The notes beneath the pieces were generated by a model. That model did not search any database. It was not told the origin of the DNA and saw nothing but the letters and a program-made list of their open reading frames with translations. Positions 35,892 through 44,100 of a DNA stretch of 64,000 nucleotides are shown in pieces. This DNA is from Acorus gramineus. Its lineage: Eukaryota; Streptophyta; Magnoliopsida; Acorales; Acoraceae. The stretch is taken from positions 11,528,034 to 11,592,033 of the forward strand of contig CM060853.1 in assembly GCA_030737835.1 (NCBI GenBank), given 5' to 3'. The position numbers and the translations under genes are program-made. Every line of letters begins with the position of its first letter. The stretch's first letter is position 1.

Positions 35892-36022
35892 GATCGATGC
35901 AGGTCCCGAAACCCTAGTTTTGCTTTCCTTCTTTTCACTTCAGTGTCTCTTACTGATCGAGAGAGGTTGAGCGGAGAGGGCGATTGTAAAGGAGGTGTGG
36001 TTTACATGGACCGCTATAAAAA

Positions 36023-36498
36023 TGGAAGAGCTCGACGAACCGCGTCAGACTTGTTTGGGGTCCATTGATCTGCACCGTCTACGAGAAGAGACTTTGTTTG
36101 AACGGTCGAGATTGCTTTTTTGTCGTTACGCCCCCGGTGGGCGTTGGAAAGTTTTGACTTGGCTTCCTGTGATGGAGTTCGTTAAATGGACGGCTCTGAT
36201 GATCTCAGTATTGATTTCTGCGATTAACGCTTCGGCTCCGTTTGGGAGTGTGGTGGGAGTATGCATGTGGAAGAGCTCGACGAACCGCGTCAGACTTGTT
36301 TGGGGTCCATTCATCTGCACCGTCTACGAGAAGAGACTTTGTTTGAACGGTCGAGATTGCTTTTTTGTCGTTACGCCCCCGGTGGGCGTTGGAAAGTTTT
36401 GGCTTGGCTTCCTGTGATGGAGTTCGTTAAATGGACAGCTCTGATGATCTCAGTATTGATTTATGCGATTAATGCTTCGGCTCCGTTCGGGAGTGTGT
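36023..36498. repeat. Tandem duplication, 245-bp unit, two copies
   Basis: The unit starting TGGAAGAGCTCGACGAACCG at 36023 starts again at 36268. About seven base differences are seen over the 230 bp compared, so identity is about 97 percent. It begins about 130 bp upstream of the MPP-alpha start codon on the opposite side of the leader, so it probably duplicates promoter sequence. The second copy is cut short at its right end by a hAT element. Confidence 0.88.
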
Positions 36499-36504
36499 TG
36501 GGAT

Positions 36505-37379
36505 GCTGTTAACAGGTCAGGTCCGGGTCCGCGTGGCAAGACCCGGTGATCCTGGAAAATGTGGACTCAGACCTGTCGGATCCGGGTCTGACCCGACCTG
36601 GATGGTTGGTAAAAAAAAAAAAAAATCAAGAAAAGCTCATGTATTTGTTTGCCTTATCATTCTACTTGAAAATTTTTGTAATAAAACATTATTATTAATT
36701 AAACTATGTTTGAACATAATTTTATACAATTCAAAAAAAGTGAATGAATTATTAAACAACATCCAAAACAATAATCACTAACATAAAAAACATATTAACA
36801 TAAACAGTAAACATAACTAATTATACAAACATTCAAAACAATATTAACCTAAATAACATTCAAAACAATAAACACTAACATATTAATTTAAATAATAAAC
36901 ATAAATCATGCAACAAACTAATTAATTATACAAATTCAAAAGCTAATAAGTTAATTGTCCAAAACAAACTGACGACAATACATTACTAAGTTTATTACAT
37001 ATTAAACAATCAAGTTTTTGCAAGTTGCAACATCAACACAACGAAAAAAATGTTTTGATTATGATTATGATTTATGATTTATGGACTTGTTATGATTTAT
37101 GAACTTATGGATACAAAAATAAGTTAAGTAATAAATAAAATTATGTATCAACTAATATTAACATTCTTGTAATATATGACCATATATTAATAAAACAATT
37201 GGGTCTCGGGTCCAACGGGTCAGGGTGGGGTGGACCCAGATCCGACCCGTTTGTTTGTTCGGGTCCACCGGGTCGGGTCTAACTCGGGTCGGGTCCAAAT
37301 CGGGACAGATATATTACACGTGTAATCGGGTCCGGGTAGGGTCGGGTCCGGGTCTGGACCCGACCCGTTGACAGGCCTA
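36505..37379. mobile_element. Non-autonomous hAT element, family 1, copy 2
   Basis: It aligns along its whole length with 7086-7948: GGGTCC-type terminal arrays, the same poly-A-like run near the left end and the same AT-rich middle. The right end GTTGACAGGCCTA is intact; the left end has diverged. The flanking 8-mers GTTGGGAT and GGTGGGAG match at six positions, and comparison with the first tandem unit (GGTGGGAG at the same place) supports this as the target site. It is non-coding. Confidence 0.8.
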
Positions 37380-37759
37380 GGTGGGAGACTCGGCGTCGGT
37401 GGAAGCGTAGGTGCGTTGAAAAATCATTGTTTCAATGCGTCCGAACCGCGAGAAAAAAATAGGCGTCGAACGCGCATATTCATTTCAAACGCGAGCACCA
37501 GTTATTATGTTTGTTTGGGCGGTGGCGGTGCACTGAATCGGCCAACGCGAACGCGCTCAAACCACGCTCCCAAACGGAGTCGCCCAAAATCAAAAGTTAA
37601 AAAGTTAGAAAAATGTTAAAACTCTGCCTTGTTTCCAACCAGTGTTTTAAAATCTGACGTGGCCCGTTGAACTGGTTAAATCTTTATCTGTATTGAATTT
37701 CGATTCGATTTATTCTTAAAATATATTCGTATAAAAAACTGATAAAACCAAACCAACCC

Positions 37760-38300
37760 ACCCATTGAACCTTTTGAGATTATTATAGCTTATAAAATGA
37801 TTTAAACAAATTTTATTTTGGACACTCATGTCTTCAATATTTTTACTAATAATATATGTATCTATTTTTCACTATTACACCAAAACTCAGCAAACCTCTT
37901 TTCATCTCCTCAATGTTTTACTATTACAAATAATTTGTCAAAATTTTATTTTATAATTTCATTTATCACTCAAATTATTAAAATTCTGGATTGTAATATT
38001 TGAAAAATATTATAGTGAATTTGAACTTTTATTTATTTATGTTAATTTTTAAAAAATATTTATAAAATTGATTTTATTAGTAAAAACTAACTTATTTTAT
38101 CAAACATAAATCTATTTTTCATTTCTATAACTTAAAGTGATATTTTTTACAATTATACGGTAAAAAGTTATTTTATAACTTATTCTAACAAGCATCCATT
38201 GCTGCTTATTTTATGTTTTTAAACAATTATAACAAACATGTTCATTACTTATTAAAAAAATTAAAATCTATAATCTATAAGTTATATGTTGCATTTGAAC
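37760..38300. mobile_element. AT-rich MITE family B, copy 2
   Basis: Inverted relative to the copy at 15110-15670 and similar over about 500 bp. It ends near AATCTATAAGTTATATG. Boundaries are approximate. Confidence 0.55.
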
Positions 38301-38400
38301 GTGAGATTAAAAACTCCGTGATTTTTCAAATTTTGAATTTTAAAAACATTGTTTTGTTAGCTTTTTAATCACTAGATTTTTAACATGAAAAAGTAATATG

Positions 38401-38697
38401 GTAATTTGAAAAGTCAAATGCTCAGGTTTTTAGGATAAATTATCTTAATTTTAGAGGATAAGAAGTCCTTTAAATATTTACATTTGTCAGAATTGAGATA
38501 AAAAAGTATGGATAAGTGTTATCCCAGCTTTTATGTGGAATAAAATATCTCTATTTTTATTTTAAAATTAGGACAATTTTTCACAGTTTATCTCAATTAT
38601 TTTTTATACCAAACAATGATAAGAAAGTTGTCCTCTCACTCACTTATCTCCATAATAACCTCTTATCCCACCACTTATCTCCTTGTTAAACAAAACC
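38401..38697. mobile_element. MITE family A, inverted copy
   Basis: Its reverse complement follows the copy at 5177-5475, including GATAAGTGGTGGGATAAG, TTTGGTATAAAAAATAAT and the AATAAAAATA-rich middle. The right end abuts the target duplication of the neighbouring MULE, which therefore inserted beside it. Confidence 0.65.
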
Positions 38698-38844
38698 CTA
38701 AATATGTGGGGGCACGTCTACTCCCACCAACCAATTCACTATTCCCACAAACCAAAAATTTAAAAACCCATGCGTAGATTTAATTTGAACATCATTAATC
38801 CCACCAACCATTCAACAATCTCCTTGTCAATTTTCTTATAGAAC

Positions 38845-39030
38845 AATCGACAGTCCTTTTGTCAACCTTTATTCAATACATTCGACAATCTTCCTGTCAA
38901 CCATTATTTAAAACATTCGACATTCACCATGTCAACTACTATTTACAATATTCGACAGATGCTCTATCAATCAATTTTTACAATATTCGATAGTTTGTCT
39001 GTCAACCTGACAAGGTTTGTTCGACTGTAA
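38845..39030. repeat. 35-bp iteron array inside the Pack-MULE
   Basis: TCGA words recur at about 38847, 38882, 38917, 38952, 38987 and 39021, spaced 34-35 bp. Most units carry TTCGACA, a spacer of some eight bases, and then TGTCAA, making a weak inverted repeat. Confidence 0.85.
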
Positions 39031-39894
39031 ATGTGTCAAACCGGATATTTAAATAACACAGATACCACTCTCATCGTAACTTATGATTTTAATCAAACTT
39101 TAAAATGCACTAAGTATCATTTCACCACCACCACAACAAACTTCCACAATCAAATGGCCATATTTAAAAAAAAACAATTTTGCCCCACTAAATCAAAAAC
39201 CCAATGAAGGAAATAAATAAATATAAGTTTTTTTTTTTTCATTTGGTCTGTCTTCCTTAGCTGAACATTTGAAGTGGTTGGTCGCATGCACCTATCACCT
39301 TCTAAGTACATATATTAATATTTCTCAATCATCTTTTCCTAACATGCAAATCAAATCCAAAAATGGAAGGGTGAGCATGACATGAAATTTCATCACCCCA
39401 ACCATAGCTTTTTTTTTATATATGTGGTGGGACTAATATAATTAGCAAAGTATACATATTCAAGTTGTTATTTATTCATTTCATAAAGCAGTAAAAGCAC
39501 ACTGTCAAGAACTATGAAATTTTGAAAATAATCCATTAAAAAAGCATCATTATTTTAGGGGGTGACAACAAATTTGTATGAATTTTTTTTCTTGCTTAAT
39601 TCGACGACCTTATTGTCAACCACACAGAAAAACCATCGACATGTTTGCTTTGTCGTGACGACATTGATGAACATTTTTCTTGCTTAAGTCGATGGCATAT
39701 CAGTTGACCTTATTGAACAACCATTGACAGGGTGCTTGTCGATATGGACGAATCTACTCGACTCTGAACCTGTCGGCCTGGATTTGAAAAGGATCCAATG
39801 GAGGGGTTGTCAAAACTTCGCGTCTCCGAATGCTTTCACCGACGTCTCTATAGTCCTCCAGCATGTTAGACACAAAGTTGACCTTTGAAGAGGC

Positions 39895-40145
39895 TAACAA
39901 CGCTCTCCCTTATTTCACCAGCAACCGTCGGGGAAGCATGGTGCACCGTGGGTGTGGAAAGAAGTGGGACCCGCCGGAGAGGATGACGGCCCTAGGGTTC
40001 AGGCGGGTGATGGAATGTGGTACCAGAGAGCAAAGGGAGAAGATGGAGAGCTTCCGGATGTGGCGGTGATGAGATGGGTGTATTGGGAGCTATAGTCGAG
40101 GATCAAGACGAGGTTAGCGTCGTTGGCATTTGTTAGGGTTTCCAT
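39895..40145 (-). pseudogene. Captured 5' fragment of a GMP synthase gene
   Basis: From an ATG at 40145 the minus strand reads METLTNANDANLVLILDY then SSQYTHLIT, matching the start of plant GMP synthase and its class I glutamine amidotransferase domain. A one-base deletion then moves the match to another frame (RKLSIFSLC, ITRLNPRAVILSGGSH). A second shift returns it to THGAPCFPDG. The similarity stops before the catalytic Cys region. Upstream, to about 40240, is a pyrimidine-rich sequence like the source gene's 5' UTR. The fragment cannot make an enzyme. It lacks an obvious intron, but only the first exon may have been taken. Confidence 0.8.
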
Positions 40146-40514
40146 TGTTTCTCAGTGGGGATCCGGTTTAGGGTTATGGGGATGGGGGAGATGAAGAGAG
40201 GAGAAACTAGGAAAGAGAGTTTGTGTAATAGAAAAGGGAGGGCGTGGGTTTAGTGATTCAGAATTTTAGTATTTATAGGATGGTGAATTTAGTAAGAAAA
40301 TAAATGATGGTTGGTGACTATGGTTGTTGGGGGGGGTCAGTCAAAAGGTGTGTGGGGATAGACGTGCCCAAATATGTGTTTGGATCCGCGCTTGAGAATT
40401 TTTAACTTTTCAAACGCAGAATTTACCTAAACTCATATTCAAACAGACCCAAAATCTATAATATGTGAATTTAAACTGCAAAATCTCATATAAGCATGAT
40501 CATAATATTTTGAA

Positions 40515-40965
40515 GGGTAAAATGCATTTGGACCCCTTGAAGTTTTTAAAACCCGCAGAAGCACCCCCTGAAGTTAAAAAACATGCACTTACACCCTTTA
40601 TCGTTAGATTTTCTATTAAGATGAGACAAAAATACTTTAAAATTACTATTTTAACCCTTTAATTAATTTTGTAAATACCAAAAAAAGAGCCAAATTAACT
40701 TTGAATATGCCTTATAAATATTAATTACTACAATAATAAAATCTTCGAATACATTTGGATCAATTTATTGTGAGAAATAACTCACACAACAGTTAATTAA
40801 AAGGTGAAAATACGATAATGATTTAATTAAAATGGGTAAAATCGTACTTTTATTCTATTTTAACAGAAAATCTAATGGCAGTGGGGTGTAAATGCATGTT
40901 TTGAAACTTTAAGAGATGCTTTCGTAGGTTTCAAATACTCTAGGAGGTCCAAACACAATTTACCC
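40515..40965. mobile_element. MULE-type MITE with long terminal inverted repeats
   Basis: The left end GGGTAAAATGCATTTGGACC and the inverted right end GGGTAAATTGTGTTTGGACC start a terminal repeat that continues, with mismatches, for about 110 bp (both arms contain AACATGCA, then TTACACCC, then TTAGATTTTCT). The flanking 9-mers TATTTTGAA and TCTTTTGAA match at eight positions. The element is 451 bp and non-coding. It lies 230 bp upstream of the KAE1 start codon. Confidence 0.8.
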
Positions 40966-41194
40966 TCTTTTGAATGAATGTAATAAGAGATATAAATAAA
41001 GAGATTACTACTTGATTTTTTTTTTTGGGCTAAATAAATCAAAAACAATTTCCCTCCCCTAAAAGCTTATGAATAGACCCCCAAAAATACACTTCCCACC
41101 ACCACCCCCTCTCTAAAAAAACCCGTCCTGGGTGTCTCTCCCGCTCTCGATCTCCACCGTTCAAACTCCACACACACCCCCCCCAAAAAAAAAA

Positions 41195-44100
41195 ATGGAG
41201 AAGAAAACCCTAATCGCGATCGGCTTCGAGTCCTCAGCGAACAAGATCGGCATCGGCGTCGTTGACCTCTCCGGCGCGATCCTCTCAAACCCTAGGTCCA
41301 CCTACATCACCCCTCCGGGCCACGGCTTCCTCCCCCGCGAGACCGCCCACCATCACCTCCACCACCTCCTCCCCCTCCTTTCCTCCGCCCTCTCCTCCGC
41401 CCGCATCACCCCCTCCGACGTCGACTGCATCTGCTACACCAAGGGCCCCGGCATGGGCGCCCCCCTCCAGGTCGCCGCCGTCGCCGCCCGGGCTCTCTCT
41501 CTCCTCTGGAAGAAGCCCATCGTCGCCGTCAATCACTGCGTCGCTCATATCGAGATGGGGAGGGTCGTGACCGGGGCGCGGGACCCGGTCGTGCTGTATG
41601 TGAGTGGGGGGAATACGCAGGTGATTGCGTATAGTGAGGGGAGGTATAGGATTTTTGGGGAGACGATCGATATCGCGGTTGGGAATTGCTTGGATCGGTT
41701 CGCAAGGGTTCTCACGCTATCGAATGATCCGTCACCGGGTTACAACATTGAACAGGTTTGAATTGATTGGGTTTGTTTGGATTTTGTTGTTTGTGTTTGT
41801 GAATTGTTTGATTTTTGTGTGAATTGTGACTAATCACTGTGTAATGCCTCCGAAATACTCAACCAATAATGGGCAATAATCCATATTATGTTGATTGAAC
41901 TATAATACTAATAATGATAATGAGATCATCAAATATCATGAACTTGAATGTGCCGTTTGGATAGAGACATAAGTTCTATGACTATTTTAGGAATACTACA
42001 TCAGCGGATTACAACATTGAACAGATTAGAATTGATAGGTTTTGTTTGGATTTATTGTTTGTGTTGTGAATTTTTTTATTATAATTATTTTGTGTAATTT
42101 TTTTTCCAATAGTATCTCCAACCCTCAACCCTAGATTGGTACGCATATCAAATTTATTTTGAGTAAAAAGCTCACAAAATCCACTTCAAACCTTTACCCA
42201 TGTTGAAGACTAAAAAATTTACCCCTTTTTTTACTCTACCAACGGGCTATTTTTTTCCAACAGTAGCTTCCACCCAATGTCTATAAATCTTCATTCTTCT
42301 TTTTTCTCATTCACTCCTTCATTTCTTTTTAGTCTTTTGTTTCTATACTTTTTCTTTAAACAATGGATTATTTTGAATTTTTTGAAGATTCTCCAAGTTT
42401 GGAGGATACTACTGGAGTAGAAATTATTTCTTTAAATACAGATGAGATAAAAGACTGAATGAAATTTATGATATTTTGAGCAAGTCGGAGGGAAGGATGT
42501 AGAAGGTTAGGATTCACATGAAATATAAATATAGGAGTTTATTAATGAGTAAAACTTCAAGGGCAGGGATATTGCCACCACCCTCGTTATTCTAGCCAAC
42601 ACCTTTATTTACACAATTGCCATCCATATATTTTTTTATTATAAATGACTAAGAGCACCACCCTATAGCTGCCACCGCCCTAAAAATTTTGCATGGACAA
42701 GCCCACCACCTAAATTCAAAATACATATTTACACAACATATCGTTGATTCTGAAATGAGTTAGACATATGGGTTGTCTACATGTTTAGATTTCCTAAACA
42801 ATCATCATGTCGATGAAAACAGGAAAAAAAAAAAAAACTCGTAGGTTCTGGAATGCGTTAGACACATGGGGTGTCTACGTATTAACATATCCTAGACAAT
42901 ATTCCTGTCGATGGGAACAAAAAAATCTCATAGGCTTTGGAATGGATTATACACATGGGGTGTCTATATATTTATATATCCTAGACAATCTTCTTGTCGA
43001 TAGGAACAGATTGAAAAACCTGTAGACATGAATGTCTACGTGTTTTTATTTTCTAGCTAATCCTCCTGTCAATGGGAACAGAAAAAAAAAAAAGGAAAAC
43101 CACCATGATCCATTAATAAACATTCAAACTCATGCTTACAAAGAAAGTCATCTAACGTTTGATCAAAACTACCATTCAAAACCATATAAACATTGTTTAA
43201 AGTAACAACATTTCAACAAGTGCTCCTACAAAAACCATCTAATACACAATTGATCGAACCATTGTTATTGTTTACATAATAAACATTCATTTCAATAAAT
43301 CTTAGAAGAAAAAAATGATTTATTAATCTATTAGCTCCATTTATATATCCATTGTCGTTCAACCTTTTAGAATGACGTTTTCTAGTTGGTGACTTCGGGC
43401 GACCTGATGACGATGGAAGATGCGTTCTGTCTTGACAATAGTCCAATACATTTTACACGTGTCTTTGCCAAACATTCATTGTATGTCGCTCTTGTACGAG
43501 TGACTGCAAGTATTGTGATATATGGGTACGCAACAAAAGAAACATTGATGTGTTAATAAAGCTATATGGGTATCGAAATATTCCTCTCGACAAAGTACTT
43601 GTCTAGATAATATAAATACCTAGGCAACCCATGTGTCTAGCTCGTTTCAGAGCCTATTTGGCAAGGATTATATGTATTTTGGATTTAAGTGGTGAGCTTG
43701 TCCAGGCCAAATTGGTAGGGTGGTGGCAGCTATAGGGTGGTGCTCTTAGTCATTATAGCTGATAAGTATATGGATGCCTAAAGTTAGTTTGGGTGGTGGT
43801 GCCTAAAGTAATTGAGGAGGTTGGAGTATCCCTGCCCAAACTTCAAATCATGATTGGAGTACACTAGTATCAAATATAGCTTTTACTCAATAAGTGGAAT
43901 TTAAGATACATTTTGAGTAAGGGCTGGAGATGCTCTAAGTTGTAGATTTTGAAAGTTGGTGATTTGATGGAGATTAGGAATGGTTTTATGTGTTTTCAAG
44001 ATTATGATCATTGGGAAAGGAGAAATGGAGTGAGGAGTGTGATGACTGGGATGGAGTTACAATAGATGTTCTTGTTTTTTGTATCATTTCAACTGGTAAT

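Follow-up and report, generated by a model that had tools for sequence, protein, structure and literature searches.

Does a short segment with matching ends in the window (the whole 64-kb stretch of Acorus gramineus DNA analysed here, positions 11528034–11592033 of contig C7 in the 399-Mb genome G000) represent a transposon that has captured part of a GMP synthase gene, and, if so, where did the captured sequence come from and what has become of it? A sequence-only reading had proposed that the segment is a Pack-MULE, a Mutator-like element (MULE) carrying host-gene sequence, with a 5' fragment of GMP synthase as its cargo. Our analysis points to a Pack-MULE that forms a mosaic of host sequence, was presumably moved by a transposase acting in trans and carries a decayed, non-coding cargo, a reading to which we give a probability of roughly 0.93. 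The features on which this reading is built are collected in Table 1.

Table 1 Features of the element and its immediate borders, in window positions.
Feature	Positions	Strand	Remarks
Mutator-like element, non-autonomous	38709–40369		1,661 bp; GMP synthase 5' end on minus strand
Target site duplication, left copy	38700–38708		AAATATGTG
Left terminal arm	38709–39050	+	342 bp; shared with a larger family, where it forms the long terminal inverted repeat
Third fragment, function unassigned	39051–39561	+	80% identical to G000:C6:3756968–3757493
Internal segment	39562–39794		Among 31 loci compared, matches the three closest copies only
DHNA-CoA thioesterase gene fragment	39795–39899	-	End of last exon, stop codon and start of 3' UTR; by eye to ~39914
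GMP synthase 5' fragment	39918–40200	-	5' UTR, ATG at 40145 and ~75 codons; frame broken by deletions
44-base core of GMP synthase exon	39971–40014	-	Donor region coding for SITRLNPRAVILSGG
Right terminal arm	40201–40369	-	Outermost ~31 bp are the family terminal repeat; remainder is a distinct arm, also present elsewhere
TATAAATA motif in right arm	40270–40277	-	Upstream of the GMP synthase 5' UTR; in 6 of 6 aligned elements
Target site duplication, right copy	40370–40378		AAATATGTG

The borders of the element are sharply defined. Exact 9-bp copies of AAATATGTG directly abut the two ends, an identity expected by chance at two fixed positions with a probability of ~8e-6 given the base composition of the window, and the inverted ends are identical over 11 bases (GGGCACGTCTA), beyond which a weaker likeness fades past ~31 bp. 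The matching ends and perfect duplication described from the sequence alone were thus recovered exactly, and no further exact occurrence of GGGCACGTCTA was found in the 64-kb window. No stop-to-stop frame of at least 90 aa lies within the element, which is therefore non-autonomous and free of transposase, as a Pack-MULE is defined. It also shows the terminal inverted repeats of that class (11 bases identical, ~31 bp similar), a target duplication within the 9–11 bp range (a perfect 9 bp at four out of six elements with GMP synthase cargo) and identifiable host-gene fragments (GMP synthase from contig C11, DHNA-CoA thioesterase from contig C3), and its matches on C11, C3 and C6 provide the two or more unlinked loci that mark chimeric or multi-donor Pack-MULEs. 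An Rfam scan of positions 36000–43000 returned no match. High-copy repeats flank the element on both sides (38424–38702 and from ~40500), with 1,557 and 1,553 candidate places, respectively, 40 of which were scored in each search.

The left arm, in which subterminal repeats of TCGACA..TGTCAACC type were recognised by eye, was present in both orientations at 16 of the 20 other family loci fetched, being partial at one end in some of them (e.g. L044). The family to which the left arm belongs therefore has long terminal repeats, and the element studied here has unequal arms, one long and the other shorter and different. When these 20 loci were viewed unsystematically, duplications of 9–10 bp were seen by eye at L040, L051 and L055 (the one at L055 being A-rich), and no perfect duplication was seen by eye at L049. 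A search with 140 bp of the right arm gave 28 matches, of which 19 had 73–79% identity.

The source of the cargo was sought by searching the genome with window positions 39800–40250, which matched 12 places: the window itself, its three closest copies, related elements on C32 and C8, three tandem copies on C6, two GMP synthase genes and one thioesterase locus. The GMP synthase gene on C11 is 82% identical over query bases 51–333 (283 bases, including the 5' UTR; E = 1.4e-75); this probable parental gene, for which the sequence-only reading had proposed a search of the host genome, aligns with 39918–40200. A second GMP synthase gene, on C7, is 80% identical over query bases 101–333 (E = 1.1e-49), and at both loci the C-terminal domain of GMP synthase (PF00958) is found ~3 kb downstream. 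Exon 1 of the C11 gene is open, scores 173.6 bits with the NCBIfam model guaA_Nterm (curated cut-off 172.15) and matches PF00117 with an E-value of 6.8e-32. At sites where the two genes differ, all nine captured fragments are nearer to C11 (10–18 versus 1–5 sites), the window fragment agreeing with C11 at 16 sites and with C7 at 4. Since the fragments resemble C11 at more of the differing sites, the C11 gene is the likely donor, located in the same genome. The C7 paralogue was considered as donor and rejected, as the site count is against it and its DNA match begins later, without the 5' UTR. Its exon 1 (L026 2110–2500, in the region of G000:C7:18558608) is broken by an in-frame stop and by a shift of frame, and this copy is either a pseudogene or an assembly error.

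Protein-level evidence for the same fragment is much weaker. The minus-strand peptides LVLILDY, QYTHLIT and RAVILSGG, reported earlier in shifted frames, were all reproduced by translation. The expectation that a protein search would reveal GMP synthase similarity was borne out in part: the sole PDB match of one stop-free GMP synthase piece was indeed a GMP synthase, at a weak E-value of 0.59, and neither of the two stop-free GMP synthase pieces of the element matched a Pfam family at E-values up to 1. The identification of GMP synthase therefore rests on the DNA comparison. Protein searching nearly missed the cargo because its reading frame is broken, and the element illustrates how a search confined to proteins can overlook such cargo once this has happened.

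GMP synthase is one of several sources. The adjacent stretch 39795–39899 had a single match outside the elements among the 12 places, a locus at C3:16939021 (E = 2.3e-15), to which it is 78% identical over 113 columns. This locus encodes a hotdog thioesterase (PF03061, 9.3e-14); one exon matches the structure PDB 4k02 of 1,4-dihydroxy-2-naphthoyl-CoA (DHNA-CoA) thioesterase, an enzyme of vitamin K1 synthesis, at 9.9e-28, and the last exon aligns with this chain up to its final residue (2.8e-7). A Pfam search with the window's own stop-free thioesterase piece matched no family. At the junction between the GMP synthase and thioesterase pieces, 5 bp (GGGTT) are common to both donors, as noticed by eye and after the fact. 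A MULE transposase domain lies ~9 kb from the thioesterase donor, at G000:C3:16948128–16948412 within a 591-aa frame; its proximity is probably a coincidence, because such domains are common in this genome. The third fragment likely derives from an AT-rich locus of ~535 bp on C6 (L034 2460–2994, G000:C6:3756959–3757493). Matches to the element arms were absent from this locus, and three long frames of L034 (of 15 listed) had no Pfam family above cut-off. The GC content of the donor sequences is 63% for GMP synthase, 53% for the thioesterase and 35% for the third piece. The element is therefore a mosaic containing pieces of at least two genes and of a third locus. The sequence-only reading had overlooked the thioesterase and third pieces, and its interpretation is supported with that qualification, the case for a Pack-MULE with a captured GMP synthase 5' fragment being strengthened by the donor in the same genome, the duplications at four of six elements and the long-terminal-repeat family sharing the left arm.

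The same arrangement recurs across the genome. A search with the whole element gave at least 62 matches (40 of 252 candidates scored), many of which cover the left arm only. Full-length or nearly full-length copies are found on C136 (89% identity) and at C6:7295818 (C6a, 86%), a partial copy without the left arm at C7:16633404 (C7b, 84%), and related elements with a different middle part at C32:10895498 and C8:6945991. The GMP synthase capture is thus present in five other elements and in one tandem array. Perfect 9-bp target duplications, all different, flank the elements in the window (AAATATGTG), on C136 (TTTACTAAA), on C32 (TTTCATCTA) and on C8 (ATAACATTT), which indicates that the cargo was transposed to new sites after it had been captured; none was found for C6a, whose right end enters a G tract that accounts for this. 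A degenerate segmental duplicate or processed pseudogene of GMP synthase lying beside unrelated inverted repeats would also place such a fragment here, and the donor segment, which lies inside one open stretch of exon 1, would suit this explanation in that it offers no intron whose loss could reveal a pseudogene. Such an origin is nevertheless highly improbable and is already contradicted by the recurring structure: five places show this piece enclosed by the same arms and a sixth shows it next to the right arm, four of these places have perfect and different duplications, and the breakpoints are shared. Some observations fit the preferred Pack-MULE reading less well, among them the failure to find a duplication at C6a, the absence of a left arm from C7b, the similarity of the two arms over ~31 bp only and the low GC content of the third donor.

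Two further features of the copies were observed. The three tandem copies (L028 2137–6272, G000:C6:19359636–19363771) lie in local duplications, one of ~0.6 kb and the others on a ~3 kb scale, and all lack the same 45 coding bases; counted from the donor ATG, their frames run to 102 codons or more, 36 codons, and 104 codons or more, the first and third being truncated where the analysed sequence stops. The C136 copy is adjoined by two inverted arms (L029 420–927 and 1883–2382), related to L028 4532–4997 and 7293–7761, which look like another element.

The breakpoints divide the copies into lineages. In the window lineage (window, C136, C6a and C7b) the GMP synthase piece stops early and is followed by the thioesterase stretch. 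The piece is longer in C32, C8 and the tandem copies, where it reaches approximately base 2170 of the C11 locus (L025) and has a common 3' junction. The region of the 5' junction is common to all six elements, and the tandem copies are 82–83% identical to the adjoining right arm over query bases 68–138. Fragments differ from the donor at 18–28 of 171–215 sites and between lineages at 19–32 of 138–205 sites, counts that would be expected if the family had split soon after capture; the substitution counts taken alone are also compatible with changes in the C11 gene, rather than in the elements, after capture. We infer that an ancestor with these arms copied ~380 bp of the GMP synthase gene, from the 5' UTR to about codon 106, and that one lineage later lost the 3' part of this piece and gained the end of the DHNA-CoA thioesterase gene instead, while C32, C8 and the tandem array would have retained the longer piece. 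Capture probably took place by template switching during repair or replication, because the donors were copied rather than moved and because the GGGTT overlap suggests such a mechanism. The element would then have been moved by a transposase supplied in trans, leaving a 9-bp target duplication at each landing. Among the 150 MULE-domain places scored of 1,162 candidates, none was a transposase-bearing element with these ends, and, in the same set, no MULE domain was seen by eye within ~42 kb of the listed arm places, a result that counts against the preferred reading.

The coding state of the cargo bears on whether the element could have any protein product. The coding part has lost the same bases in all four members of the window lineage, through two deletions of 1 base and one of 8 bases, and the frame from the donor ATG extends for 48 codons in the window, 48 in C136, 9 in C6a, 10 in C32 and 10 in C8 (C7b is omitted from these counts, as the start pattern did not catch it). 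As the frame-breaking deletions are common to four copies, the cargo appears to have spread in the elements as a non-coding passenger. A short chimeric protein joining the N-terminus of GMP synthase to the end of the thioesterase might be imagined from the retention of the donor start codon and part of the 5' UTR, from the succession of the pieces in gene order (the start of one gene, then the end of another) and from the TATAAATA motif upstream, but the shared deletions strongly disfavour it and the frames of 9–48 codons in the five elements counted leave it with very little probability.

The motif itself is a putative TATA box or promoter element of the right arm. Relative to this nearer terminal arm the GMP synthase piece has the sense orientation, and any transcription starting there would be in the sense direction with respect to GMP synthase, not in the antisense direction envisaged from the sequence alone. 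The cargo may be transcribed in this direction from the right arm, and may in this way feed small-RNA silencing. Such transcription would point away from the gene that begins ~0.8 kb past the element on the plus strand (41195–41758, ATG at 41195), the start of a gene for a tRNA threonylcarbamoyladenosine synthase (PF00814, 1.1e-49; PDB 8k20, 2.9e-107). We take this TsaD-family gene to be KAE1/OSGEP.

A regulatory role, in which transcripts or small RNAs of the elements would act on the GMP synthase donor, is unlikely on present evidence. Maize Pack-MULEs and other capturing elements are described, in the part of the review consulted (PMC13317346), as siRNA reservoirs that can silence related transposable elements and donor genes. 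The window copy shares with donor exon 1 an exact run of 44 bases (24 21-mers and 21 24-mers), which would permit small-RNA matching, and the C136 copy an exact run of 65 bases. In shuffle tests that counted private changes only, and neither inherited changes nor columns deleted in a lineage, the 44-column stretch had one private change among four copies (a count as low arose in 9 of 5000 shuffles, whose mean was 5.9) and none among three (47 of 5000), a 30-column stretch had none among four copies (46 of 5000), and tests of the run in single copies gave 231 of 5000 for the window and 35 of 5000 for C136. Against these values, 60 columns were ordinary (1122 of 5000 with four copies, 1264 with three), as were 30 columns with three copies (753 of 5000) and the single-copy runs of C6a, C7b, C32 and C8 (1171, 2460, 392 and 609 of 5000, respectively); the column sizes were picked after the data had been seen, and the outcome varies with size. 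C32 and C8 do not retain the 44-base core, and the thioesterase piece of the window copy has no exact 21-base match to its donor (that of C7b has eight 21-mer matches). Taken together, these comparisons are a weak indication of selection on the core. The narrower proposal that several copies retain the donor sequence of the core because small RNAs from it would couple the element to a purine gene that is essential is more doubtful still; if it were true, silencing of the transposon would also strike GMP synthase, and the capture would thereby shield the transposon.

The value of this Pack-MULE lies in the record of stepwise capture that it preserves: two donors are named, copies have breakpoints in common, the second gene piece is present in one lineage and missing from others, and target duplications are perfect. 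It could be used to illustrate exon copying by MULEs. It leaves knowledge of the Pack-MULE class unchanged. No paper in the collection consulted contained both 'Pack-MULE' and 'GMP synthase', and this particular element may be undescribed, whereas Pack-MULEs with multiple fragments and multiple copies are well known as a kind.

The element resembles the Pack-MULEs treated in the consulted parts of two studies (PMC3310237, PMC4858842) in its terminal-inverted-repeat ends and 9-bp target duplications, in the copying of exon pieces from other contigs (two of the three donors being GC-rich), and in the occurrence of several copies with different duplications and more than one source locus. It differs from the elements in those parts in its unequal ends, with a 342-bp family arm set against a shared repeat of ~31 bp, and in combining a piece of GMP synthase with one of DHNA-CoA thioesterase. 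Closer comparison is possible with PM-ZIBP, a multicopy Pack-MULE family of tomato carrying a fragment of a zinc-ion-binding-protein gene (PMC3310237), in which, as here, one gene piece was amplified together with the element and the members vary in structure. The PM-ZIBP target duplications visible in the consulted portion of that paper are 9–10 bp, against 9 bp here, and, as described there, its members vary by tandem terminal repeats, whereas the present lineages vary by the second gene piece. Among the MULE-derived chimeric putative genes of Oryza, ~5–10% derive from at least two parental genes according to the sections consulted (PMC4858842), and the present element, drawing likewise on at least two genes, is comparable to these multi-parent cases. 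Unlike the Oryza putative genes, which, in the sections consulted, had to contain reading frames (PMC4858842), it carries a frame that is broken.
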